Source of the DNA: Shinella zoogloeoides
GTDB lineage: Bacteria; Pseudomonadota; Alphaproteobacteria; Rhizobiales; Rhizobiaceae
Direction: 5' to 3'
Length of the DNA stretch: 64,000 nucleotides
Assembly (NCBI RefSeq): GCF_030733845.1
Contig: NZ_CP132312.1
Location: 193,501-257,500 of the forward strand
Part shown: positions 33,594 to 47,513 of the stretch, one piece after another
Layout: each line of letters starts with the position of its first letter
Position numbering within the stretch: the first letter of the stretch is position 1
Program-made: the position numbers and the translations under genes
Notes under the pieces: generated by a model
The model's database searches: none
The model's input: only the letters and a program-made list of their open reading frames with translations
What the model was told of the DNA's origin: nothing

Positions 33594-35381
33594 TCAAAGA
33601 ATGGTTTTGCCGAAAGCCGACAGGATGAAGTTGGCGCATTCCGCGCCGATCGGCGATGGCAGCGCGGCATCAATGCCTGAAACGCTCAGCGAGCGCAACT
33701 TGCCGCTGAGCGCCGCCATCTCCATCGCCGAATGGGTCTCGCGCACGGTGATACCGCCGATGCCGCCGCTCCAGCCGGACATGTCGGTGGCAGTCGGCGA
33801 ATAGCAGAGGTGAAAACCGCGCGTGCCGGCAGAGGCGATGGCGATTGCGTCGCGCATCGCCTGGCGCAGGCCGACGGCGTCGATCTCCGCCATGGTGAAG
33901 GTGCGGATGCGCGAAGCTTTCAGCGTCGCCGCCTCTTCGGGCGCTGCATTGCGCAGGCCGACGAGCACGATGTTCTCAGGCGCGATATGCGGCGGCAGGC
34001 GGGCCAGCATGCGGCGCAGCACGGCATTTTCCGGTGGCGGCGCGTCGTCATCTCCATCCGGCATCATGGCGGCGTCGGAATCGATCCAGACCAGGCCGAG
34101 CGCATCGTGCCGGCGGCCGGCCGCTTCGACGAAGGGCAGGATATCGCGCCGGCGGGCGCAGATGGAAAGCCTTCGCGCATCGCCATCAGTATCCCGCTCG
34201 AAACCGAGATGTTCGATGCGCTCGACAATGTTCTGCACGACCACGAGCGCGCCGCCGATGGCGTCCGTCTCGATTTCATAGGTCTTGCGCGCGCCCGCTT
34301 TCTGCACATCCCGCATGGGAACCTTCTCCACATATTCAGACGTCATCACCGTCAGCAGCGCGCCGTAGTTCATTCGGAAGCTGACATTCTCGCCCACCTG
34401 CAAGGGCGGATCGGCCTCGGTGAGATCGAGCACGAGATGATCGCTGGATGCGCCGAGCACACGCACGCCCGGGCGCGCCGGGATGAGCCCTTCGGCGATC
34501 ACGTCCTCGCGGCCGATATTGGCGATGCCGCGCAGCCGGTCTCCTTCGTCGAGGAAGACCGGCGCGTTGCCGAAGGCGTCGAGGCCGGACTTGCCGATCG
34601 GCATCGACGGCTTGACCTTCACTTCCAGCAGTTCGCCGGTGAGCTCGAAGGCATCGCGGTCGAGCGCCTCCCACGGCTCGGTGAGGAAGGTGTCGCGCCC
34701 GCCCTGCAGGATCGCCTCGCCGATGCGCAGGTTGTTGATGCCGACAGGCATTCCGCCGGCCAGAAGCAGGGGAAGCGAGGAGGAGTTGCCGCCGGAGACC
34801 CAATCGAGCGGGCGGCCGGTGATGCTCTCCACCTTGTAGGCGTGGGCGACGAGCTGCGTCAGGTTCTCCTGCGTCGGGATGATGGCGCCGAAGCAGGTGA
34901 GGTTGGTGCCGACGCCGGCTATGCGCACGCCGGGCAGGTCCATCACCGCCTCGACGGTGGGGATGAGGTCGCTCGGCCAGATTCCCTCGCGCAGGTCCCC
35001 GAGGTCGATCATCAGGATGACGTCGTGCACACGGCCGAGCCGTTCGGCGACGCGGGAAATCTCGCGCATCAACTGCAACTCGGATTGCAGGCTGATATCG
35101 ACGGTGCGCACCAGTTCCTCCACCCGCGTCAGCGGCGGCGAGCGGAGCAGCATGACCGGGCAGTCGATGCCGGCATCGCGCAGGCGGCGGATGTTCTCGA
35201 AGCGGGATTCGGCGATGCCCGCCACGCCGCCGCGCAGCATGGCGCGCGCGACCTGCGGCATGCCGCAGGTGCCCTTGGTAACGCCGAACGGCGTGATGCC
35301 CGCGCCGCGGCAGAGATCAACGACCGCGCGGGCATTGCGTTCGATGCAGGCAAGATCGATCGAGATTTGCGGATCGGACAT
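33594..35381 (-). CDS. Alanine/ornithine-racemase-type PLP enzyme fused to a degenerate arginase-like domain
   Basis: A 595-residue two-domain protein. Residues 1-350 form a PLP barrel racemase of the Orr/YhfX type: the PLP Lys36 is in FGVTKGTCG, and SGGNSSSL and FGNAPVF follow. Residues about 365-595 line up with the ureohydrolase fold, e.g. LGLVWIDSDAAMM where arginases have DAH-x-D, GFHLCYSPTATDM where they have S-x-D-x-D-x-x-DP, and GGITVRETHSAMEMAA. All manganese ligands are replaced, so the second domain should be catalytically dead and may bind arginine or another guanidino ligand. Start at 35381 follows AAGGGA. It is 42 bases after the dehydrogenase gene, with a hairpin between. Confidence 0.82.
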   Translation of the reverse strand: MSDPQISIDLACIERNARAVVDLCRGAGITPFGVTKGTCGMPQVARAMLRGGVAGIAESRFENIRRLRDAGIDCPVMLLRSPPLTRVEELVRTVDISLQSELQLMREISRVAERLGRVHDVILMIDLGDLREGIWPSDLIPTVEAVMDLPGVRIAGVGTNLTCFGAIIPTQENLTQLVAHAYKVESITGRPLDWVSGGNSSSLPLLLAGGMPVGINNLRIGEAILQGGRDTFLTEPWEALDRDAFELTGELLEVKVKPSMPIGKSGLDAFGNAPVFLDEGDRLRGIANIGREDVIAEGLIPARPGVRVLGASSDHLVLDLTEADPPLQVGENVSFRMNYGALLTVMTSEYVEKVPMRDVQKAGARKTYEIETDAIGGALVVVQNIVERIEHLGFERDTDGDARRLSICARRRDILPFVEAAGRRHDALGLVWIDSDAAMMPDGDDDAPPPENAVLRRMLARLPPHIAPENIVLVGLRNAAPEEAATLKASRIRTFTMAEIDAVGLRQAMRDAIAIASAGTRGFHLCYSPTATDMSGWSGGIGGITVRETHSAMEMAALSGKLRSLSVSGIDAALPSPIGAECANFILSAFGKTIL

Positions 35382-35424: not shown

Positions 35425-36672
35425 TTAGTTCCTGTAGAGCAGGCCTGCGGTATCGATCTCCGGCTTGCGGCCGGAGACGAGGTCGGCGATGAGCTTTCCC
35501 GAGCCACAGGCCATCGTCCAGCCAACATGGCCGTGGCCGGTATCGAGGAAGAGGTTTTCGTAGCGCGCGCGCCCATGCACCGGCACCGATCCGGGCATCA
35601 TCGGCCGCAGACCCGACCAGAGCACGGCCTTGGTCTCGTCGATGGCGCCGGGGAAGAGATCGTGCGCCGTCTTGAACATGGTGGCGAAATCGGACGGCTT
35701 GAAGGAACGGTCGTAGCCCGCGAACTCCGCCGTCGAGGCAAGGCGCAGGCGGTTGCCGAGGCGCGAATAGGCGATCAGCCGGTCTTCGTCGACGCCGCCC
35801 ATGGTCGGTCCATTGTCCGCGTCTATGGGAAGCGTCGCAGTGTATCCCTTGACGGGATAGACCGGCACGTCGATGCCGATCTTGCGGGCGAGCAGGGAAC
35901 TCTCCGGCCCGAGCGACAGCACGACGGCGTCGCAGGCGACCTGCCCCCTGTCCGTCAGCACGGCCTTGACCCGCCCGCCCTCTACGTCGAGACCGGTGAC
36001 GGTTGTGCCGAAGCGGAAATCGACGCCGTGGCGGGTGCGGGCCTGTTCGGCGAGGCTGCGGGTGAAGAGCGAGCTGTCCCCCGTCTGGTCCATCGGCGAA
36101 TAGACGCCGCCGGCAAGCTGGTGCTTGACCGCGGCAAGGCCCGGCTCCAGCGCTACCAGCCGTTCGCGATCGACCACTTCGATCTGAAGGCCCCGGTCGG
36201 CGATGTAGCGCATGTGTTTCGCGCCGGCATCCATGCTCTGCTGCGAACGGTAGAAATAGAGGATGCCCTTGCGCCGGTCGTCGTAGGAAATGCCGGTTTC
36301 CTCCTGCAGCGCGTTGATGCACTGGCGAGCATAGAAGGCGAGGCGCAGCTTGACGTCCGTATTGGCGTTGGCGCGGGCCTGCGTGCACTGCATGAGGAAG
36401 CGCAGGCACCAGGAAAGGAATTGCGGATCGAGCGAAAAGCGCACCTTGATGCCGAGGTCTGAGCGGAAGAGCGACTTCATGAAGGTGGCGAGCGCGCCGG
36501 GTGAAGCCCAGGCGGTGGAATCGCCCGGCGAGACGAGGCCGGCATTGCTCTGGCTGGTGCCGCGCGCCACGTCCTCGTGGCGCTCCAGCACGGTCACGTC
36601 ATGGCCGTCCTTCGACAGATACCAGGCCGCCGCCGTGCCGACGACACCGGCGCCCAGAACGACTACTTTCAT
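35425..36672 (-). CDS. FAD-dependent D-amino-acid dehydrogenase (DadA type)
   Basis: A 415-residue flavoprotein oxidising a D-amino acid to the imino acid, passing electrons to the respiratory chain. The FAD-binding motif VVVLGAGVVGTAAAWYL opens the protein and the C-terminal GHGHVGWTMACGSGK closes it, the latter binding the flavin and the substrate carboxylate. The DadA signature SNAGLVSPGD is present. DauA of Pseudomonas aeruginosa, a related enzyme, acts on D-arginine. Its neighbours (racemase, RidA, ketoarginine-type decarboxylase) suggest D-arginine here. The gap to the upstream hydrolase gene is 18 bases. Confidence 0.85.
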   Translation of the reverse strand: MKVVVLGAGVVGTAAAWYLSKDGHDVTVLERHEDVARGTSQSNAGLVSPGDSTAWASPGALATFMKSLFRSDLGIKVRFSLDPQFLSWCLRFLMQCTQARANANTDVKLRLAFYARQCINALQEETGISYDDRRKGILYFYRSQQSMDAGAKHMRYIADRGLQIEVVDRERLVALEPGLAAVKHQLAGGVYSPMDQTGDSSLFTRSLAEQARTRHGVDFRFGTTVTGLDVEGGRVKAVLTDRGQVACDAVVLSLGPESSLLARKIGIDVPVYPVKGYTATLPIDADNGPTMGGVDEDRLIAYSRLGNRLRLASTAEFAGYDRSFKPSDFATMFKTAHDLFPGAIDETKAVLWSGLRPMMPGSVPVHGRARYENLFLDTGHGHVGWTMACGSGKLIADLVSGRKPEIDTAGLLYRN

Positions 36673-36690: not shown

Positions 36691-37707
36691 CTAGCTGCTC
36701 ACCGCGCCCTGCTTGAAGGTCGGCGCGAAGCCGCCGGAATCCCCATCGTTGAAGCGGATGATGCGCACCTCCTCCTCGAAGGCGGTGCAGGATTGCCGCC
36801 ACACCGATCCCGGCCAGACCAGTTCCACCGAGGCGTCGAGCGGGTGGTAGGCGGCGGTGTAGAGCGTGCCGTAGCCGCGTCCGTACGAGGTCTGGTAGAC
36901 CGGCGGGCGCAGGAAGCTGGCAAGCACGGCTTGCGTATCGGCCGTGCCGGCAAGCGTTTTCTCCAGCGACGCCTCGCGCTCCATCGACCGGGTGGTCTCG
37001 GCATGGCGCGCCCATTCGACGCCGTGCTGGTGGTTGGTGCTGACGCGCCGCTCCACCACTTCGGCCGGGCGGTCCGGGTTGACATAGACCGTCGCGTGGC
37101 TGCCGTCCCGGTCGATGATGGCGATCGAATAGGACATGTGAACGGGAATGCGCTGGAGCATTGCGACGGCCTCGGCCGTGTTGCTCGCGAATTCCAGCAC
37201 GTAGCGCAGCACGACGGGAATGCCGAAGCCCTGCCCTGCCGCCGTACGCCCGCCGAAGGAGAGCGAGACGGCAAGCCCATCCTCGTTGATGCCGTCGAGC
37301 ACGCCCCACAGGCAATCGACCACCGCCACCACCCGCTTGTTGTAGCGCGAGGCGAGCCAGGTGCCTTCGAGAAGGCGGGGGCTATAGTCGTAGTTGCGGA
37401 TGAGTGCCGGCTCCGCCCCCGTCAGGATCGCCTGCGAGCAGCCGCCGACATAGAAGGGGGGGCACCACATGGAGAGGAACCGCGCCTCGAGGTCCCCGCC
37501 GCCGGCCGCCGCGACGATGGCCTCATAGGTCGGCAGCAGTTCCGGCATGTGGGTGCGCAGCGCCTTCAGGCTCATGAAATAGGTGGGGCGCGAACGGACC
37601 CCGTCACGCACGAACCAGCGGCTATAGGCGTGCCAATGACGATCGAACACCCGGCGCCATTTCGGGCCGGGCAGGTCTTCGTCGATGGCTTCGAACTGGA
37701 GGTCCAT
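36691..37707 (-). CDS. C45-type Ntn hydrolase, acyl-CoA:6-APA-acyltransferase-like
   Basis: A 338-residue protein of the Ntn-hydrolase fold. The candidate nucleophile is the Cys of VGGCSQAIL, which would be exposed by self-cleavage before it, and RNYDYSPRLL and DGINEDGLAVSL are hallmark strands of the C45/AAT group. Members hydrolyse or form amide bonds (penicillin acyltransferase, carcinine hydrolase). It comes 6 bases after an ATP-grasp ligase, so the two may form and release an amide conjugate of an amino acid. The substrate is not known. Confidence 0.75.
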   Translation of the reverse strand: MDLQFEAIDEDLPGPKWRRVFDRHWHAYSRWFVRDGVRSRPTYFMSLKALRTHMPELLPTYEAIVAAAGGGDLEARFLSMWCPPFYVGGCSQAILTGAEPALIRNYDYSPRLLEGTWLASRYNKRVVAVVDCLWGVLDGINEDGLAVSLSFGGRTAAGQGFGIPVVLRYVLEFASNTAEAVAMLQRIPVHMSYSIAIIDRDGSHATVYVNPDRPAEVVERRVSTNHQHGVEWARHAETTRSMEREASLEKTLAGTADTQAVLASFLRPPVYQTSYGRGYGTLYTAAYHPLDASVELVWPGSVWRQSCTAFEEEVRIIRFNDGDSGGFAPTFKQGAVSS

Positions 37708-39273: not shown

Positions 39274-40716
39274 TCAGCGTTTCAGGCGCGATGTGACGTG
39301 TTTGACTTCCAGATAGGACGACATGCCCCACGGCCCGAGCTCGCGGCCGATGCCGCTCGCCTTGAAGCCGCCCCACGACGTCTCGACGAAAATGGCCTGA
39401 GGGCTGTTGATCCAGATATGGCCGGCCTCGATGGCATCCGCCACGCGGTTCGCCTGTTCCTCGTCGCCGCTGACGACCGTGGCGACGAGGCCGAAGTCGC
39501 AGTCGTTGGCGAGCGCGATGGCCTCCTCCTCCGTCTCGAAGGTGCGGATGCACAGGACCGGACCGAAAATCTCCTCGCGCCAGAGGGCGCTGGTCGCCGG
39601 CACGTCGCCGAAAATCGTCGGCTCGACGAACCAGCCGTCGAGGCCGGCCGGCTTGCCGCCGCCGGCCAGCAGCGACAGGCCCTCGGCCTTGCCGCGTTCG
39701 ATATAGGCGAGCACCTTGTCATGCTGCGCCTTCATGGTGATCGGGCCGATCTCTGTGCCCTCGTCCAGGGGATCGCCGGGCTTCAAGGCTCGGCTTCTGG
39801 CGATTATGGCCTCGATCAGTTTTGGCGCAATGGGTTTTTCTACCAGAAGGCGAGAAGTGGCCGAACACATCTGGCCGGCGTTGAAGAAGATGCCGCCGAG
39901 CACGCATTCCACGGCCTCGTCAAAATCCGCATTTGCGAAGACGACGATGGGCGATTTGCCGCCGAGTTCCAGGCTCACCGATTTGACGCCCGGCGCACCC
40001 GCCGCCATGACGCGCGCGCCGACGGCGTTCGAGCCGGTGAAAGAAACCTTGGCCACGTCCGGATGGGTCGTCATCGGCGCGCCGACACGCTCGCCGGTGC
40101 CGGTGACGATGTTGAGCACGCCGGGCGGCAGGCCGATCTCGTCGGCGATAGCGCCGAGTTCCAGCTCCACGACGGGGGTGATCTCGGAGGGTTTCAGCAC
40201 GACGGTACAGCCGGCGGCAAGGGCCGGGGCAACTCTCCACGAGGTCGTCACCAGCGGGAAGTTCCAGGGCACGATAAGGCTCGCGACGCCCGCGGGTTCC
40301 TGGCGCAGCCGGGCGTGAAAACCATTATCGGGAAGCGCCACATCGGCATCCTGTCGCTCCTGAAGGACGACGGCCTGTTCGGCATAGTAGGCGAAGGACG
40401 CGGCCGCATCGGCCATGTCGATGCGCGCCTCGGCGATCGGCTTGCCGTTGTTGCGCGAGGAGAGGCGAGCCAGCTCTTCTGCGCGGTCCCGCAGCCTTTG
40501 CGCGATCGCGCCCAGATAGCGGGCGCGCTCGCGCCCGCCCGCATCGCGCCAGCCCGGGAAGGCCGCCTTGGCGGCGGCCACGGCCTTGGCGACGTCTCCC
40601 GGGCCGCCGGCCGAGACCTCATGGTAGACAGTGCCGCGATAGGGATCGAAGACCGGGATGCGGCCGGGCTCTACAGGGTCCTGCCAGCGACCGTCAATGT
40701 AGAGCTGGTGCCGCAT
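39274..40716 (-). CDS. NAD(P)-dependent aldehyde dehydrogenase
   Basis: A full 480-residue ALDH with catalytic Cys284 in NAGQMCSATSR, base Glu250 in LELGGKSPI and the VSFTGSN cofactor motif. It is nearest in layout to betaine/aminoaldehyde dehydrogenases. Downstream of a ketoarginine-type decarboxylase (7 bases away) and near a guanidinobutyrase, the likely reaction is 4-guanidinobutyraldehyde to 4-guanidinobutyrate. That substrate is inferred from the operon; other aminoaldehydes remain possible. Confidence 0.87.
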   Translation of the reverse strand: MRHQLYIDGRWQDPVEPGRIPVFDPYRGTVYHEVSAGGPGDVAKAVAAAKAAFPGWRDAGGRERARYLGAIAQRLRDRAEELARLSSRNNGKPIAEARIDMADAAASFAYYAEQAVVLQERQDADVALPDNGFHARLRQEPAGVASLIVPWNFPLVTTSWRVAPALAAGCTVVLKPSEITPVVELELGAIADEIGLPPGVLNIVTGTGERVGAPMTTHPDVAKVSFTGSNAVGARVMAAGAPGVKSVSLELGGKSPIVVFANADFDEAVECVLGGIFFNAGQMCSATSRLLVEKPIAPKLIEAIIARSRALKPGDPLDEGTEIGPITMKAQHDKVLAYIERGKAEGLSLLAGGGKPAGLDGWFVEPTIFGDVPATSALWREEIFGPVLCIRTFETEEEAIALANDCDFGLVATVVSGDEEQANRVADAIEAGHIWINSPQAIFVETSWGGFKASGIGRELGPWGMSSYLEVKHVTSRLKR

Positions 40717-40723
40717 CTTCGCC

Positions 40724-42346
40724 TCACGCCGTCAGCGCATCGGCAAGCGGGGAGCCTGCCTGGATTTCGATCACGGTGGGCACCTTGCGGGTGGCGGAGG
40801 CCTTGAGTTCGCCTTCGAGTTCCGCAAGGGAGGCCGGGCGCGAGGCTTCGCAGCCGAGCGCCTTTGCGAGGCCGACGAAATCGGGCGTGAAGATATCGAC
40901 GCCGATCTGCGGGATGTCGCGCTCGGCCATGAAGGCCTTGATCTCGCCGTAGCTGGTGTTGTTCCAGATGACGACGGCCGTGGCGATGCCCGCTTCCACG
41001 GCGCTCGCCAGTTCCTGCACGGAGAATTGCAGGCCGCCGTCGCCGATGAGGCAGACGGAGGGACGGTCCGGCGCGCCGAGCTTGGCGCCGAAGGCGGCCG
41101 GCAGGCCGTAGCCGAGCGTGCCGTAGCCGGTGGAGGAGTTGAAGAAGGAACGCACCTGCGGCGCCTGGTAGAACTGATTGACCGCGTAGACCGGTTCGGT
41201 CTGGTCGCCGGCAACCGTCGCATCGGGCAGCGCGCGGGTGACGATCTCCATCAGCCTGCCATGGGTGCGGCAGGCGGGCCACAGGCCGGCGGCCACCTTT
41301 TCACGGACTGCCTTCGCCCGCGCCGCTCCGTCGCCTGTCTTGCGGGTTTCGCCAAGAGCGGCGTCGAGGCTGGCGGCGGCGAGTTTTGCGTCGGCGGCGA
41401 TCGGCACGTCGCAGCGAAGGCCGGTGACGATCTGCGCCGGGTCGATGTCGATGCGGATGAGCGGGCCGCCGAAGGTCAGCGGCTTCGGCTCGGGATACAT
41501 CTCCGTCTCGCCGAACTCCGTGCCGATGGCGAGGATCGCGTCGCTTGCCGCAAGCTCGTCGAGCAGCGGCTGCATGCTGAGATTGCCGGTCATGGTCAGC
41601 GCATGGCCGGGTTTCAGGATGCCGCGGCCGTTGATCGTCATGAAGACGGGGGCGTCGAGCTTTTCGGCGATGGCCGTGATTTCCGCCGCCGCATCGGCGG
41701 CACCGCCACCGGCGACGATCATCGGACGCTTGGCGGCCTTGAGGATCGATGTTGCTTTCTCGATGGCCGAAGGATCTGCGGCGGCGCGGCCCGGCAGCGG
41801 CCAGGCGTCCGCGGAGAGGTGCTCCGCTTCGGCGACGATCACGTCGAGCGGGATTTCGATATGGACGGGGCGCGGGCGCCCGGAATTGAACACGGTGAAG
41901 GCGCGCGCCATCACCTCGGGAAGCTGAGCGGGATCGAGCAGCGTGTGGCTGAAGGCGGCAACACCGGCCACGAGATTGCGCTGGGAGGGCAGTTCATGCA
42001 GCCGCCCCTGCCCCATGGCGAGCTCTGCGCGCGAATTCACCGCCGAGATGACCAGCATCGGCACCGAATCCGCATAGGCCTGGCCCATAGCGGTGGCGAT
42101 GTTGGTCATGCCCGGGCCGGTGACGATGAAGCAGACACCCGGCTTGCCCGTCACGCGCGCATAGCCGTCGGCCATGAAGCCCGCGCCCTGTTCGTGGCGC
42201 GGCGTGACGTGGCGGATCTTCGTGGCCGGCAGGCCGCGATAGAGTTCGACCGTGTGGACGCCCGGGATGCCGAAGATCAGTTCGACGCCGTAGGATTCCA
42301 GGAGACGGACGAGGTATTCGCCGGTGGTGAGACGGGTGTCTGCCAT
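40724..42346 (-). CDS. Thiamine-diphosphate-dependent decarboxylase, 2-ketoarginine decarboxylase (AruI) type
   Basis: A 540-residue ThDP enzyme with three domains. The N-terminal pyrimidine-binding part has GIPGVHTVELYRGL and the catalytic Glu in TPRHEQGAGFMADGYARVTG; the C-terminal part has the GDGGLQFSVQELASAVEAGI to WNNTSYGEIK cofactor motif. It could be read as acetolactate-synthase-like, but there is no regulatory subunit. With the neighbouring racemase, dehydrogenase, ALDH and guanidinobutyrase the best match is a 5-guanidino-2-oxopentanoate decarboxylase like Pseudomonas AruI. The start at 42346 has GAGG 10 bases upstream. Confidence 0.75.
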   Translation of the reverse strand: MADTRLTTGEYLVRLLESYGVELIFGIPGVHTVELYRGLPATKIRHVTPRHEQGAGFMADGYARVTGKPGVCFIVTGPGMTNIATAMGQAYADSVPMLVISAVNSRAELAMGQGRLHELPSQRNLVAGVAAFSHTLLDPAQLPEVMARAFTVFNSGRPRPVHIEIPLDVIVAEAEHLSADAWPLPGRAAADPSAIEKATSILKAAKRPMIVAGGGAADAAAEITAIAEKLDAPVFMTINGRGILKPGHALTMTGNLSMQPLLDELAASDAILAIGTEFGETEMYPEPKPLTFGGPLIRIDIDPAQIVTGLRCDVPIAADAKLAAASLDAALGETRKTGDGAARAKAVREKVAAGLWPACRTHGRLMEIVTRALPDATVAGDQTEPVYAVNQFYQAPQVRSFFNSSTGYGTLGYGLPAAFGAKLGAPDRPSVCLIGDGGLQFSVQELASAVEAGIATAVVIWNNTSYGEIKAFMAERDIPQIGVDIFTPDFVGLAKALGCEASRPASLAELEGELKASATRKVPTVIEIQAGSPLADALTA

Positions 42347-42350
42347 GATG

Positions 42351-43304
42351 TTATCGCCTCTGCACGCCCGGAAGGACGCAAAGCATTTCAAAGAGAAGGT
42401 TGGCCGCCGTGATCGCCGTGTTGCCCGAGGGATCGTAAGGCGGGGAGACCTCGACGAGGTCGCAGCCGACGAGGTTGAGGCCCCAGCAGCCGCGGATGAT
42501 CTCCAGCGCCTGGATCGTGTTGAGGCCGGCGATCTCGGGCGTGCCGGTGCCGGGCGCGATCGACGGATCGAGGCTGTCGATGTCGAAGGAGAGATAGACC
42601 GGGCGGTCGCCCATCTGCGCGCGGACTTCCTCCATCAGCGGCGTCAGCGACTTGTGCCAGCACTCTTCCACCTGCACCACGCGGAAACCCTGCTCGCGCG
42701 ACCAGTCGAAATCGTCGGCGGCATAGCCCGTGCCGCGCACGCCGATCTGGATGCAGCGCTTGGTGTCGAGCACGCCGGCCTCGACCGCGCGGCGGAACGG
42801 TGTGCCGTGGGCGATCGGCTCACCGAACATGTGCTCGTTGATATCGGCATGGGCATCGACATGGATAAGGCCGACGGGGCCGTGTTTTTCCGCCATCGCC
42901 CGCAGGATCGGATAGGAGAGCGTGTGGTCGCCGCCGAGCGTCAGCGGGATGCAGTCGTTCTTGATGATGTCGCGATAGGCATCGGTGATGATGTCGATGC
43001 ATTTCGGCAGGTTGAACGTGTCGATCGCGACGTCGCCGATATCGGCGACCTGCAGGCTTTCGAAGGGGGCGGCGCGGGTCGCCATGTTGTAGGGGCGGAT
43101 CATGCAGCTCTCGGTGCGGATCTGCCGCGGCCCGAAGCGCGTGCCCGGCCGGTTCGACGTGCCGATATCCATGGGAATGCCGACGAAGCAGGCGTCGAGC
43201 CCTTCCGAGGTCGGCTGCGTCGGCAGGCGCATCATGGTGGCGGGGCCGCCAAAGCGCGGCATTTCGTTGCCGCCCAGCGGCTGGTTGAAGGTCTTTGTCG
43301 TCAT
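42351..43304 (-). CDS. Ureohydrolase of the agmatinase/guanidinobutyrase type
   Basis: A 317-residue arginase-superfamily enzyme hydrolysing a guanidino group to urea and an amine. All manganese ligands are present: LGGDHTLS, VDAHADI and LSFDIDSLDPS, and the GTPEIAGL loop follows. The N-terminus NQPLGGNEMPRFGG is typical of the guanidinobutyrase/guanidinopropionase subgroup. By operon it should convert 4-guanidinobutyrate to GABA and urea. Start at 43304 has GGAGGAAAACAG before it. The thiamine-diphosphate gene begins 4 bases after its stop. Confidence 0.85.
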   Translation of the reverse strand: MTTKTFNQPLGGNEMPRFGGPATMMRLPTQPTSEGLDACFVGIPMDIGTSNRPGTRFGPRQIRTESCMIRPYNMATRAAPFESLQVADIGDVAIDTFNLPKCIDIITDAYRDIIKNDCIPLTLGGDHTLSYPILRAMAEKHGPVGLIHVDAHADINEHMFGEPIAHGTPFRRAVEAGVLDTKRCIQIGVRGTGYAADDFDWSREQGFRVVQVEECWHKSLTPLMEEVRAQMGDRPVYLSFDIDSLDPSIAPGTGTPEIAGLNTIQALEIIRGCWGLNLVGCDLVEVSPPYDPSGNTAITAANLLFEMLCVLPGVQRR

Positions 43305-43400
43305 CTGTTTTCCTCCGGCGGGGCGGTGTTTCACGTCTTTTGCCCCGACCTGACTGCACTCTACGAGACTTGCCCGAACGGCTGGAATACCCCTTTTCGA

Positions 43401-44273
43401 TTATTCTTCGGCCCGGGGCAGGATAAGGCAGGGCACGGGCGCGTTGTGCACGATCTTGCGGGCGTTCGAACCGAGGAAGACGCGCAGGATCGGCCCGAGC
43501 TTGCTGGAGCCGAGCACGAGCAGTTCTCCCTCCTCCCAGGAGAGCGACTCGAAGGCGGCCTTCCAGGTCGGCCCGTCCGCGATTTCGGCGGACAGGCCCT
43601 TCTGATCCGCCAGCAGGGCCGTCTGGGCATCCCGCGCCTGTTCGCGCAGCACGTTGGAAACGAACTGCTCCGCGTCGTAGCCCGCGCCCGTCGGGTACAT
43701 CTGCTTGTCGCGCACCACGAAGGTCACGAGACGGAGCGGAACCGTGTATTCCCGGGCCAGTGCGGCGCTGCGCGCGACGATGCCGGGTGCCGAAGACGAG
43801 CCGGAATAGGCGGCGCTGAGCCGTCGTACAAGGGTCCCGGGCCCGGCCGAATAGCCGTGCGGCGCCACGGCGATCGGCAGATGCGCCGAGCGCAGCAATT
43901 CCGTCGTCACGCCGCCCTCGCCGAAATAGCCGAGCGGCGCTTCGCGTGCCGAGCCGAGCACGAGGCAGTCGGCCCCGATATCCGAGGCGGCCCTGATCAG
44001 GCCCTCGCGGGCCGAAGGGGCGGAAACGGCCATGAACTCGGCGGTGACGTCGGCGGGCAGCGCCGCTTTCGCCTCTGCCTGAACCGTTACCGTGTGGCGG
44101 GCGAGGAAGCTGCCATATTCGCCGTCGACGCGCGCCGGCGAGGGATGCCCCCAGGTGTCGGGCGTCACGGTGCAGGCGAAAAGCGAGGCCTTGCAGGACC
44201 GGGCGAGCATCGCGCCCAGCGCCAATGCCTCCTGTCCGCCCTGGTCGGCGGAAAGTCCGACGAGGATCTTCAT
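43401..44273 (-). CDS. Universal stress protein with two Usp domains
   Basis: A 290-residue protein with tandem UspA domains. The second domain has the ATP-binding pattern VLGSSKLGPILRVFLGSNA; the first has VLGSAREAPLGYFGEGG, a looser version. Its 5' end overlaps the permease gene by 4 bases, so it is made together with the transporter. Usp domains beside amino acid permeases may bind nucleotide and tune transport or metabolism; the actual role is unknown. Confidence 0.83.
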   Translation of the reverse strand: MKILVGLSADQGGQEALALGAMLARSCKASLFACTVTPDTWGHPSPARVDGEYGSFLARHTVTVQAEAKAALPADVTAEFMAVSAPSAREGLIRAASDIGADCLVLGSAREAPLGYFGEGGVTTELLRSAHLPIAVAPHGYSAGPGTLVRRLSAAYSGSSSAPGIVARSAALAREYTVPLRLVTFVVRDKQMYPTGAGYDAEQFVSNVLREQARDAQTALLADQKGLSAEIADGPTWKAAFESLSWEEGELLVLGSSKLGPILRVFLGSNARKIVHNAPVPCLILPRAEE

Positions 44274-45763
44274 TCCGCTGCCTCGCCGAGGGCATCCGGC
44301 TTTTCAAGCCGCGAATTGCGGGCGGAATAACCGAAATAGACGAGCGCCGCGATCGCGACCCAGACGCCGGTGATGGCGTAGACCATCCAGCTCAGCTTGA
44401 AGATCAGGTAAAGGCAGGCCGTGATGGAGAGGATCGGCAGGACGGGGCCGAAGGGCACCCGGTAGCCGCGCGGCATGTCCGGCTGCGTATACCGCAGGAT
44501 CAGGACGCCGGCCGAAACCACGGTGAAAGCGGTGAGTGTGCCCATGCTGGTCAGGTCCCACAAGAGGCCCGAGGGCACGAAGGCGGCGATCAGCGAGACG
44601 AAGATCGCGACGATGATCGTGCAGGCGACCGGCGTCATGCTGCGCGGATCGACCTTGTGGAAGATCGAGGGCAGAAGGCCGTCGCGCGAGACCGCGAAGA
44701 GGATGCGCGACTGGCCGTAGAGCACGATCAGCGTCACGGAGAAGATCGAGATCACCGCGCCGGCGGCAAGCAGGTTTGCCGGCCAGGCGGCGCCCGTGAG
44801 GTTCTGCAGGATGGTGGCAAGGCCGGCTTCCTGGCCCTCGAAGGCGCCGGCCGGCTGCACGCCGAGCGCCGCGAGGGCGACAAGCACATAGAAGCCGGTA
44901 ACGATGACGAGCGCCGAGATGATGGCGATCGGCAGGTTGCGCCGCGGGTTGACCACTTCCTCGCCCGCCGTGGAAACGGCATCGAGGCCGACGAAGGTGA
45001 AGAAGATGGAGGCCGCGGCCGCCTGTACCCCGCCGAAGCCGCTTTCATTGAAGAAGGGCGTGAAGTTGGCGCTGTTGAAGGCGCTTCCGGCGATCACGAT
45101 GAAGAGCGCGAGCACGGCGAGCTTGACCAGCACCATGATGGCGTTGGCGCGGGCCGATTCCTTCGCGCCGCGCAGCAGCAGGACGCAGCAGAGCATGACG
45201 AGGATGACGGCCGGCAGGTTGATGATGCCGGAGCCTTCCTGGAAGAAGGCCATGGCGAAGGGATGATCGCCATCGACGATGGTGATCGGCCCCTTGATCA
45301 TCCAGCCAGGCAGCACGATGCCGGTGATGTTGAAAAGCAGCTTCTCGACATATTCGGCCCAGCCCACCGCAACGGCGGCGGCGGAGATGCCGTATTCCAG
45401 CACCAGGCAGGCGGCGACGAAGAAGGCGATGCCCTCGCCGAGCGTCGCATAGGCATAGGAATAGGAGGAGCCCGAGACCGGGATCATCGAACTCATTTCC
45501 GCATAGCAGAGCGCCGAAAGGCCGGCCGCGACCGCCGCGATGACGAAGGAGATGACCACTGCGGGCCCGGCAACCGGCACCTGCTCGCTCAGCACGAAGA
45601 AGATACCCGTGCCGATCGTCGCGCCGACGCCGAACATGATCAACTGGAACAGCGTGATCGAGCGCCCGAGATGGCCGTGTCCGTCACCCGCGCCCGACGT
45701 GTCGGCCACGAGCCGGTCGACCGGCTTCTTGCGCGTGATCTGCTCAAGGATAGATGATGCCAT
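44270..45763 (-). CDS. APC-superfamily cationic amino acid-type permease
   Basis: A 497-residue inner-membrane transporter with about 12 to 14 segments. The first helix has the APC glycine motif GVGATIGTGIFFVL, and TFVGLDAVSTAGEEVVNPRRNLP is the characteristic loop of the CAT/YfnA group. It should import a cationic or neutral amino acid; arginine fits the operon. The start at 45763 was preferred because a GGAGGGGAG box precedes it; a longer open frame upstream has no features. It leads the ten-gene minus-strand operon. Confidence 0.85.
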   Translation of the reverse strand: MASSILEQITRKKPVDRLVADTSGAGDGHGHLGRSITLFQLIMFGVGATIGTGIFFVLSEQVPVAGPAVVISFVIAAVAAGLSALCYAEMSSMIPVSGSSYSYAYATLGEGIAFFVAACLVLEYGISAAAVAVGWAEYVEKLLFNITGIVLPGWMIKGPITIVDGDHPFAMAFFQEGSGIINLPAVILVMLCCVLLLRGAKESARANAIMVLVKLAVLALFIVIAGSAFNSANFTPFFNESGFGGVQAAAASIFFTFVGLDAVSTAGEEVVNPRRNLPIAIISALVIVTGFYVLVALAALGVQPAGAFEGQEAGLATILQNLTGAAWPANLLAAGAVISIFSVTLIVLYGQSRILFAVSRDGLLPSIFHKVDPRSMTPVACTIIVAIFVSLIAAFVPSGLLWDLTSMGTLTAFTVVSAGVLILRYTQPDMPRGYRVPFGPVLPILSITACLYLIFKLSWMVYAITGVWVAIAALVYFGYSARNSRLEKPDALGEAAE

Positions 45764-46037
45764 CGTTCTCCCCTCCGATGTCCTCCAACATGGCAAACTG
45801 TAGCGCCGGGCGCGGCAAAGGTGCTGCCGTATTTCTGTCGTCTTCCGGCACTTGCTGCTGCGTGCCATGCCCTTTGCGACAGTTTTTATCGCCGGTGCCC
45901 GGGGTCTTGCGGGGGAGCCGCAATGTGGTCCGGAGGCCAGCTTGACAGGGTCGGAACAAACGTATCCTTATGGTTCGAGGCTTCGGGCCACGCTCATCGG
46001 GAGGCCGCATGGCCCGGTCCATGCAGGGGGCGAGTGA
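45764..46037. promoter_or_regulatory. Divergent promoter region between permease operon and Lrp gene
   Basis: A 274-bp region without a gene. On the plus strand TTGACA (45942-45947) is followed 15 bp later by TATCCT (45963-45968), a possible promoter for the Lrp gene. The minus-strand promoter of the permease operon must lie here too. Lrp-family regulators normally bind upstream of the genes they control, so this is the expected operator region; no single palindrome stands out. Confidence 0.45.
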
Positions 46038-46580
46038 ATGAAGGATGAAGACGGGTCGATCCGGCTCGATCAGATCGACTTGCGCATTCTGGCATGTCTT
46101 CAGGCCAATGCGCGCGTGACGAACCAGGAACTGGCCGATGCCGTGGGCCTCTCGCCGAGCCCCTGCCTTCAGCGCGTCAAGCGCCTCGAAAAGGCCGGCG
46201 TTATCAACAGCTACCATGCCAGCATCGATCTCGCGAAGGTCTGCCGCCATGTGGACGTCATCGCCGCGGTGACGCTCAACAGCCATGGTCTGGAGGATTT
46301 CGAGATCTTCGAGAAGATGGTCGAGGAGATGCGCTACGTGGTGGAATGCACCAAGGTCAGCGGTCCGATCGACTATCTCGTGCGCTTCGTCTGCCCTGAT
46401 ATCGGCTCCTACCAGATGCTGTCGGATGAGCTGCTGCGGCTCGGTCCCAAGATCGGCAACCTCTCCAGCTATATCGTGCTCAAATCGAGCAAGCGCTACC
46501 GCGGCGTCGCCTTCGACGATCTGGTCTCCCCCTCGCCCCGGGGCGTGCCGGCGCGGCCCGCGCCACGCGCGGGCAAATAG
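46038..46580 (+). CDS. Lrp/AsnC-family transcriptional regulator
   Basis: A 180-residue regulator. The N-terminal helix-turn-helix is at about residues 8-60 (LDQIDLRILACLQANARVTN, then LADAVGLSPSPCLQRVKRLE), followed by the RAM amino-acid-binding domain. GGGGGCGAG lies upstream of the ATG. Divergent to the ten-gene amino acid operon, it probably activates it in response to an amino acid such as arginine. A poorly conserved basic tail of about 20 residues extends beyond the RAM domain. Confidence 0.88.
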   Translation: MKDEDGSIRLDQIDLRILACLQANARVTNQELADAVGLSPSPCLQRVKRLEKAGVINSYHASIDLAKVCRHVDVIAAVTLNSHGLEDFEIFEKMVEEMRYVVECTKVSGPIDYLVRFVCPDIGSYQMLSDELLRLGPKIGNLSSYIVLKSSKRYRGVAFDDLVSPSPRGVPARPAPRAGK

Positions 46581-46598: not shown

Positions 46599-47513
46599 AT
46601 GATGTCAGGCTCCCTTTCCGACGCAAGCGTCCTGCCGACCTCCACCGGCCGCCGGGAAAATACCCGCTTCCTGATCGCAGGCGTCCAGATGCCCGTACCG
46701 ATCTCCGGCCGCAACATCCCGGCGATGACGATCGAGATCGAAAAGACCATGGCGCTCTATCCGGGCACGGACATGATCGTCTTTTCCGAGCTTGCCATGC
46801 ACGGTCCGCTGCATGCCTGCGCGGCGGAGAACCCGGCGGCGGACGAAGCCGTTTTCCAGGCGCTCGCCGCGAAGCACCGGGTGTGGATCATTCCCGGCAG
46901 CTACTTCGTGCACCGCGACGGCAGGACGTACAACCACTCCATCGTCATCAACCCGGACGGCGAGGTCGTCGGGCGCTATGACAAGATGTTCCCCTTCATG
47001 CCCTTCGAGGCGGGCGTGACGGGCGGGACCGACTTCCTGATCTTCGACGTGCCGGATGTGGGCCGTTTCGGCCTTTCCATCTGCTACGACATCTGGTTCC
47101 CCGAGACGACGCGCACGCTGACGTCGGCGGGCGTGGAGGTGCTCATCCATCCCGTGCTGACCGGTACGACGGACCGCAAGGCGGAGCTTGCCATCGTGCA
47201 GGCGACGGCGGCGATGTTCTCCTGCTATGTCGTCGACGTGAACGGGCTCGATGCCGGCGGCGTCGGCCGCTCGCTCGTGGCCGATCCGACCGGCAATGTC
47301 GTGCACCAGTGCGGCCAGGTGACGGAAATCTTCCCGATCAACATCGATCTCGGCCTGGTGCGCCAGGTGCGCGCGGAAGGGGCCAACGGCCTCGGCCAGG
47401 TGCTGAAATCCTACCGCGACCGCACCGTTACCTTCTCCACCTACGAGAATGGCGGCGCGTCGGCCTATCTCGACAGCCTCGGGCCGCTTGTGCCGATGCC
47501 GAAACGGCGTTGA
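46599..47513 (+). CDS. Nitrilase-superfamily amidohydrolase
   Basis: A 304-residue carbon-nitrogen hydrolase with the E-K-C triad: Glu in FSELAMHG, Lys in YDKMFPFMP and Cys in SICYDIWFPE. Members split amides, nitriles or N-carbamoyl groups. It is 18 bases after the Lrp gene and belongs to the same plus-strand unit, so it may act on an amide linked to the arginine or GABA route, e.g. a guanidinobutyramide or carbamoylputrescine-like compound. ATG codons at 46599 and 46602 are equally possible. Confidence 0.83.
   Translation: MMSGSLSDASVLPTSTGRRENTRFLIAGVQMPVPISGRNIPAMTIEIEKTMALYPGTDMIVFSELAMHGPLHACAAENPAADEAVFQALAAKHRVWIIPGSYFVHRDGRTYNHSIVINPDGEVVGRYDKMFPFMPFEAGVTGGTDFLIFDVPDVGRFGLSICYDIWFPETTRTLTSAGVEVLIHPVLTGTTDRKAELAIVQATAAMFSCYVVDVNGLDAGGVGRSLVADPTGNVVHQCGQVTEIFPINIDLGLVRQVRAEGANGLGQVLKSYRDRTVTFSTYENGGASAYLDSLGPLVPMPKRR

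Follow-up and report, generated by a model that had tools for sequence, protein, structure and literature searches.

Within a 64,000-nucleotide stretch of Shinella zoogloeoides DNA (NZ_CP132312.1, positions 193,501 to 257,500; hereafter the window), a single gene joins a pyridoxal phosphate (PLP)-dependent amino acid racemase to a C-terminal region that recalls the arginases. What does an arginase-like domain contribute to a racemase once its own catalytic residues have gone? A sequence-only reading of the locus had proposed that the region is a pseudo-ureohydrolase that binds a guanidino ligand and controls the racemase, and had drawn attention to an active ureohydrolase in the same operon.

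Domain composition of the fused protein

The open reading frame comprises 595 codons, with an ATG at 35381 and a stop codon at 33594-33596 on the minus strand; the mechanical ORF begins upstream, at 35576 (Table 1). Residues 8-224 match the Pfam family Ala_racemase_N (1e-26), and residues 4-354 match the NCBIfam profile racem_Orr (NF040742) at 393.3 bits, under its cut-off of 480, so the protein does not qualify as an ornithine racemase by that profile. The PLP racemase core with Lys36 that had been read from the sequence is borne out by the Ala_racemase_N match and by conservation, Lys36 being aligned in 237 of 238 proteins among the matches listed, with a gap in the other. The closest named relatives of the fusion are from Shinella (91% identity), and the database names among the matches listed are alanine racemase, ornithine racemase and predicted amino acid racemase.

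The Pfam Arginase family (PF00491, cut-off 22 bits) matches residues 415-564 of the full protein (7.6e-12, 45.7 bits) and also the pseudo-arginase piece alone (1.4e-12, 48.1 bits), placing the region within the family. The arginase equivalog rocF (TIGR01229) scores 44.7 bits with the full protein and 47.5 bits with the piece, under its cut-off of 227.6, and neither qualifies as an arginase on this profile. A full-length AlphaFold model has a mean pLDDT of 91.8. A Foldseek search with this model matched only racemases and related PLP enzymes, and the domain was therefore folded separately. In the predicted structures the whole C-terminal domain adopts an arginase fold, and the nearest solved structures are bacterial arginases. 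The earlier assignment of a ureohydrolase fold thus stands, since structure prediction returned an arginase fold rather than an unrelated one and the profile search found the ureohydrolase family; with the catalytic residues gone (see below), the term pseudo-ureohydrolase also holds, the domain type being refined to arginase. Profile matches and models together support the view that the C-terminal half is an arginase-fold domain devoid of catalytic residues, fused to a racemase.

Table 1. Position of the fused gene, selected codons and neighbouring genes in the window
Feature	Position	Strand	Evidence
Fused Orr-type racemase and pseudo-arginase gene, 595 aa	33594..35381	-	ORF, Pfam, NCBIfam, AlphaFold model
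Racemase domain, residues 1-357	34311..35381	-	Ala_racemase_N 8-224; racem_Orr over 4-354
PLP Lys36 codon of racemase domain	35274-35276	-	
Pseudo-arginase domain and linker, residues 358-595	33597..34310	-	
R411, at GGDH His	34149..34151	-	R 116, H 103, others 19 of 238 among matches listed
D434, sole surviving metal-ligand equivalent of the query	34080..34082	-	D in 229/238 among matches listed
D501, external-site/interface Asp, 1cev D199 by alignment	33879..33881	-	237/237 among matches listed; 4/4 divergent
S528-P529-T530, at D-x-D metal ligands	33792..33800	-	D 0% / 4% of 237 among matches listed
R547-E548, interface pair, 1cev R249-E250 by alignment	33738..33743	-	237/237 among matches listed; 4/4 divergent
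E554, external-site Glu, 1cev E256 by alignment	33720..33722	-	237/237 among matches listed; 4/4 divergent
G569, at guanidinium-binding Glu of VEVNP	33675..33677	-	E 0% of 237 among matches listed
Rid-family protein, 112 aa	33236..33574	-	By eye; translation, synteny
FAD D-amino-acid dehydrogenase, DadA-like	35425..36672	-	NF001933 473.5 bits, cut-off 383
C45/AAT-family hydrolase or acyltransferase	36691..37707	-	NF040521 172.7 bits, cut-off 85
ATP-grasp-like, NCBIfam 'biotin carboxylase' PRK06524	37714..39168	-	766.5 bits, cut-off 684
Aldehyde dehydrogenase	39274..40716	-	Pfam Aldedh 1.5e-162
AruI-like 5-guanidino-2-oxopentanoate decarboxylase	40724..42346	-	NF005712 737 bits, cut-off 500
Guanidinobutyrase-type ureohydrolase; GGDH, DAHAD, SFDIDSLDP intact	42351..43334	-	3nio 511 bits
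Amino-acid permease	44270..45868	-	By eye; translation, synteny
Lrp-type regulator, divergent to operon	46038-46580	+	By eye
Carbon-nitrogen hydrolase, divergent to operon	46599-47513	+	By eye; relative at Thiofilum/Thiothrix loci

The former catalytic centre and the intersubunit site

Conservation was assessed in an alignment of the query with 237 listed proteins of 560-660 aa, P0133 (476 aa) being left out; the 238 were drawn from the best 120 of 3770 and the best 120 of 3877 matches and are therefore nearer relatives. For the comparison with arginases a protein represented by a short domain piece was left out, which gave 237 fusions, and 25 true arginases served as reference. These were picked by the motifs GGDHS or GGDHA (loci) or GGDH (proteins), DAHxD and SxDxDxxDP, with a length above 290 for proteins, a filter that discarded 8 of 19 loci and 5 of 19 proteins, so that loss at the motif columns partly reflects the choice of reference; the columns of E277, H141 and N139 played no part in it. 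Human arginase numbering is assumed here, both for D183, N139, H141, T246, E277 and R308 and for D204, R255, E256 and E262, which we take to correspond to D501, R547-E548 and E554.

The altered motifs CARRR (408-412), WIDSDAA (432-438) and CYSPTATD (526-533) are present as originally described, as are the flanking segments LGLVWID and GGITVRE. The loss of manganese ligands reported with them extends to five of the six; the exception is D434, at the first Asp of DAHxD. No protein has all six: the query keeps one, and the maximum in any of the 238 among the matches listed is three. The sets found among these 238 are D434 only (107), H411 with D434 (100), none (9) and others (22). Across the 237 fusions among the matches listed, the GGDH His is retained in 43%, the DAHxD His in 4% and its second Asp in 1%, and the first two Asp of SxDxDxxDP in 0% and 4%; D434 is retained in 96%, and in 4 of 4 divergent fusions. 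The substrate residues have gone as well, the equivalents of E277, H141, N139, T246 and D183 being found in 0, 0, 1, 7 and 19% of the same 237 listed fusions, which as a group lack the E277, H141 and N139 set. The loop before GG is shorter, two arginase-invariant columns being gapped in 237 and 225 of 237 fusions among the matches listed. The Glu of GG[IL]TVRETH was considered as the guanidinium-binding E277 and rejected, as E277 sits in VEVNP and has been lost. We do not expect hydrolase activity from the domain. Because the substrate-binding residues have gone along with the metal ligands, binding of the guanidino ligand of the sequence-only reading finds no support as far as the old pocket is concerned.

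Four charged positions at the subunit interface and external site of arginases have been kept. D501, R547, E548 and E554 are invariant in all 237 fusions among the matches listed and in all four divergent fusions tested (L097-L100), as they are in the 25 true arginases; in the larger alignment of 238 among the matches listed, D501, E548 and E554 each occur in 237 and R547 in 238. Since the interface class was named after the survivors were known, the pattern is descriptive and cannot count as a blind test. R477 and E483 are conserved in at least 99% of the 237 among the matches listed and are replaced by Q in two and four divergent fusions, respectively. Y527 (234/238) and T532 (228/238) are conserved in the fusions among the matches listed and foreign to arginases. 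The position of Arg308 in mammalian arginase is occupied by I594 in 183 of 184 aligned fusions.

The domain shares its fold with the arginase of Bacillus caldovelox (1cev), in which D199 and E256, presumably bordering the arginine site, align with D501 and E554 and Arg308 is likewise absent; unlike the pseudo-arginase domain, the B. caldovelox arginase is an active manganese enzyme. In mammalian arginase I, according to the accessible part of PMC7925462, Arg308 forms salt bridges with Glu262 and, in rat, with Asp204 of the neighbouring subunit, and the R308A variant is monomeric but regains the trimer and cooperativity with guanidinium. The same text describes B. caldovelox arginase as having no Arg308 homologue, L-arginine occupying that interface region (3CEV). 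An allosteric site enabling activation of this enzyme by arginine is reported in the title of Garcia 2015, and the title of a further study gives Glu256 and Asp204 roles in human arginase assembly. As no arginine stands at the Arg308 place in the fusions, D501 and E554 would be open to free arginine and form a candidate site. By this alignment, a guanidino ligand at the external intersubunit arginine site is possible.

Origin of the fusion and its genomic surroundings

In a tree of racemase halves, 40 main-clade and 4 divergent fusions group together with a support of 0.999, apart from 11 stand-alone relatives, and a single fusion event is therefore inferred within the sample. The pseudo-arginase part has diverged more quickly, its mean identity being 0.44 as against 0.72 for the racemase. 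Five comparisons gave dN/dS values of 0.124, 0.185, 0.183, 0.183 and 0.174 for the domain and 0.08-0.11 for the racemase, and by this measure the pseudo-arginase domain is under purifying selection. Chance similarity and a recent pseudogene were ruled out by the single clade in the sample and the dN/dS of 0.12-0.19. Nor is the domain a decayed copy of the operon ureohydrolase, because it is of arginase type, its nearest true relatives being arginases such as P0274, and is only 17% identical to that neighbour.

With the domain alone as query, 18 of 297 family genomes match. Of these, 11 are main-clade fusions, that of the genome studied here among them, recognised by the length of their open frames (609-1001 aa, with 667 aa for the fusion studied here); the others are one partial match at a contig edge, four divergent fusions and two remnants. 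In the wider phylum 14 of 398 genomes match, four with fusions and ten with the racemase part only. A search for stand-alone pseudo-arginases gave 54 matches, the close ones of which resemble gene fragments or pieces with a misplaced start, often from short contigs. Two genomes of the same genus (L096 and L101) hold only a remnant of the pseudo-arginase gene end, 77-85% identical over short stretches; the Rid gene next to it is 94-95% identical, a picture that a deletion of the operon would leave. The divergent racemase/pseudo-arginase fusions (L097-L100, L103 and L104) show 38-39% identity.

In the window, the fusion belongs to a minus-strand run of genes encoding a permease, a Usp protein, a guanidinobutyrase-type ureohydrolase, an AruI-like decarboxylase and an aldehyde dehydrogenase, followed by an ATP-grasp-like protein, a C45 protein, a D-amino-acid dehydrogenase, the fusion itself and a Rid protein (permease, Usp and Rid assigned by eye). 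A ketoarginine decarboxylase and a guanidinobutyrase are thus both encoded beside the fusion. From its neighbouring genes, the racemase most likely produces D-arginine for the dehydrogenase; where the database names say alanine or ornithine racemase, the genes around it speak for arginine. An active ureohydrolase does lie in the operon, as noted earlier, but the best solved match of this enzyme is the Pseudomonas guanidinobutyrase 3nio (511 bits; next 302.6), which fits a later pathway step and not a paralogous partner. A true arginase, scoring over the RocF cut-off, is present in the genome as well, and the candidate racemase route is therefore not its only arginine route.

Nine genes of the run or divergent to it (carbon-nitrogen hydrolase, ATP-grasp, C45, permease, ureohydrolase, decarboxylase, aldehyde dehydrogenase, dehydrogenase and Rid) recur in changed order at the fusion loci of Thiofilum (L058) and Thiothrix (L066), and five recur at that of a Burkholderiaceae MAG (L054). 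Decarboxylase/guanidinobutyrase pathway genes surround fusions in L003, L008, L009, L054, L058 and L066. Across 67 racemase-matching loci, which include the own L001 and the stand-alone L064 and some of which are cut by contig ends, a dehydrogenase is found at 63, a decarboxylase at 12 and an aldehyde dehydrogenase at 12; at the Mesorhizobium loci among those listed, only the dehydrogenase is nearby. In nine fusion-bearing genomes searched whole, the decarboxylase finds a best match of 94% identity in G605 and of 47-51% elsewhere (eight genomes), and the guanidinobutyrase one of 96% in G605, 86% in G331 and 46-48% in the remaining seven; in most of these genomes neither gene has a close counterpart. 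G605, of the same genus, has two AruI-like decarboxylase copies (C2:222082 and C3:255009), each 94% identical.

None of ten stand-alone relatives (L131-L140) has a dehydrogenase, decarboxylase, aldehyde dehydrogenase, ureohydrolase or Rid match within 12-20 kb. The upstream neighbour of these stand-alone Orr-type racemases is DUF1611 in seven of eight tested and a permease in one, marking a separate system. Two divergent fusion loci with flanks gave no decarboxylase or D-amino-acid dehydrogenase match, which weakens a strict link between the domain and ketoarginine. At the divergent loci L103 and L104 a MATE transporter adjoins both fusions, and an agmatinase-like gene lies beside L103.

Possible roles of the pseudo-arginase domain

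Known relatives of arginases with altered metal sites include the Fusobacterium nucleatum ornithine decarboxylase/arginase Oda, which we take to be a PLP enzyme, and an arginase-like protein of Trypanosoma brucei, presumably stand-alone where the present domain is fused. The available text of PMC12826042 describes the C-terminal arginase domain of Oda as non-functional, metal-coordinating Asp residues being lost, and the decarboxylase part as supporting growth without it. The Shinella protein is likewise a PLP enzyme with a C-terminal arginase domain missing metal-binding Asp residues, but its N-terminal half matches Ala_racemase_N and racem_Orr and not a decarboxylase, it lies in an arginine-breakdown operon, and five of six ligands are changed against two in Oda (PMC12826042). 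MetCb, of the metformin hydrolase MetCaCb, is a metal-free arginase-family pseudoenzyme required for activity of the complex, and, as far as the excerpt of PMC11271267 goes, five of its six ligands are changed, as here; MetCb is a separate subunit beside an active paralogue to which it is 34% identical, whereas the present domain is fused to an unrelated enzyme. The T. brucei protein, going by the title of Hai et al. 2015, similarly has no binuclear manganese cluster. No racemase fused to a dead arginase domain was found in the literature searched, mostly outside subscription journals; going by these partial sources, a dead arginase domain is already known from Oda and a metal-free arginase-family partner from MetCb.

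Having lost its catalytic centre but kept the interface and external-site residues, the domain probably serves assembly or sensing and not catalysis. We tentatively propose, with somewhat less than even confidence, that the domain is a non-catalytic assembly module, possibly with an arginine switch, in an arginine racemase that feeds a breakdown route. This route would run from L-Arg through D-Arg, 2-ketoarginine, 4-guanidinobutyraldehyde and 4-guanidinobutyrate to GABA and urea. A captured arginase would have lost catalysis and persisted by mediating assembly, perhaps into a trimer or larger complex; the acidic external site of D501 and E554 would take up free arginine, as in B. caldovelox arginase, and arginine binding would favour the assembled, active racemase. 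The recurrence of neighbours in L054, L058 and L066, and the lack of the dehydrogenase, decarboxylase, aldehyde dehydrogenase, ureohydrolase and Rid genes near the ten stand-alone relatives, are consistent with this proposal. Counting against it are the scarcity of close decarboxylase and guanidinobutyrase copies in the other fusion-bearing genomes searched, the Mesorhizobium loci listed with only the dehydrogenase nearby, the two divergent loci beside a MATE transporter and the true arginase of the same genome. Arginine as the substrate sits less well with the racemase profile, whose name says ornithine and whose score is below cut-off. The four survivors are moreover invariant in true arginases, and their retention may serve ligand-free packing only; in B. 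caldovelox arginase, the E278A change breaks the hexamer and leaves kinetics nearly unchanged (PMC11271267, excerpt). We consider unlikely the stronger version, in which the catalytic centre was dismantled, the ancestral external arginine site was kept and bound arginine switches the assembly and activity of the fused arginine racemase. If true, it would offer a natural example of an enzyme's regulatory site outliving its active site, and would make the external arginine site of arginases testable free of catalysis.

Ranking close behind the assembly module with an arginine switch is a pure scaffold, a possibility we take seriously, in which the domain would oligomerise or stabilise the racemase with no ligand, for example as arginase-like trimers joined via racemase dimers. 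The surviving charges are interface residues, as a scaffold would have them, and dead arginase domains need not be regulatory, because the decarboxylase part of Oda alone supports growth (PMC12826042, in the text available); less expected of a scaffold is that the acidic D501/E554 pair is kept with I594 at the Arg308 place, open to arginine. It is improbable that the domain senses a ligand in a remodelled old active site with R411 and D434 replacing the metal: D434 is widely kept and 219 of the 238 proteins among the matches listed have R or H at position 411, but the substrate-residue equivalents are largely lost from the listed fusions and the pre-GG loop is shorter. More improbable still is new catalysis, or docking of the dehydrogenase or Rid protein that would channel D-arginine or iminoarginine. 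Proximity of the D-amino-acid dehydrogenase at 63 of 67 loci and the fusion-specific Y527 and T532 would fit it, but no new catalytic motif was recognised and two divergent loci lack that dehydrogenase. The least probable role is that of partner subunit for the active ureohydrolase, in the manner of MetCb with MetCa. The guanidinobutyrase in the same operon and the MetCaCb precedent (PMC11271267, excerpt) suggest it; against it stand the 17% identity to an operon ureohydrolase whose own motifs are intact and the absence of that enzyme from the surroundings of the Mesorhizobium loci among those listed.

The 2-ketoarginine, 4-guanidinobutyrate and guanidinobutyrase steps of the proposed route are shared with the arginine oxidase/dehydrogenase route and described also for Pseudomonas D-arginine dehydrogenase, where Rid2/Rid3 proteins deaminate the iminoarginine formed by DauA (available parts of PMC2242806 and PMC5619798). 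Entry here appears to be by racemase and D-amino-acid dehydrogenase, unlike the arginine oxidase/dehydrogenase route. The locus thus offers a candidate arginine racemase and, for some rhizobia and a small number of records from gamma- and betaproteobacteria, a candidate arginine route that starts with a racemase. Relatives of the ATP-grasp-like and C45 genes, which lie inside the operon, occur in the Thiofilum and Thiothrix neighbourhoods but not at the Burkholderiaceae locus. 'Biotin carboxylase' seems a poor name for the ATP-grasp-like protein; an amide formed by it or by the C45 protein and cleaved by the other could constitute a hidden step.
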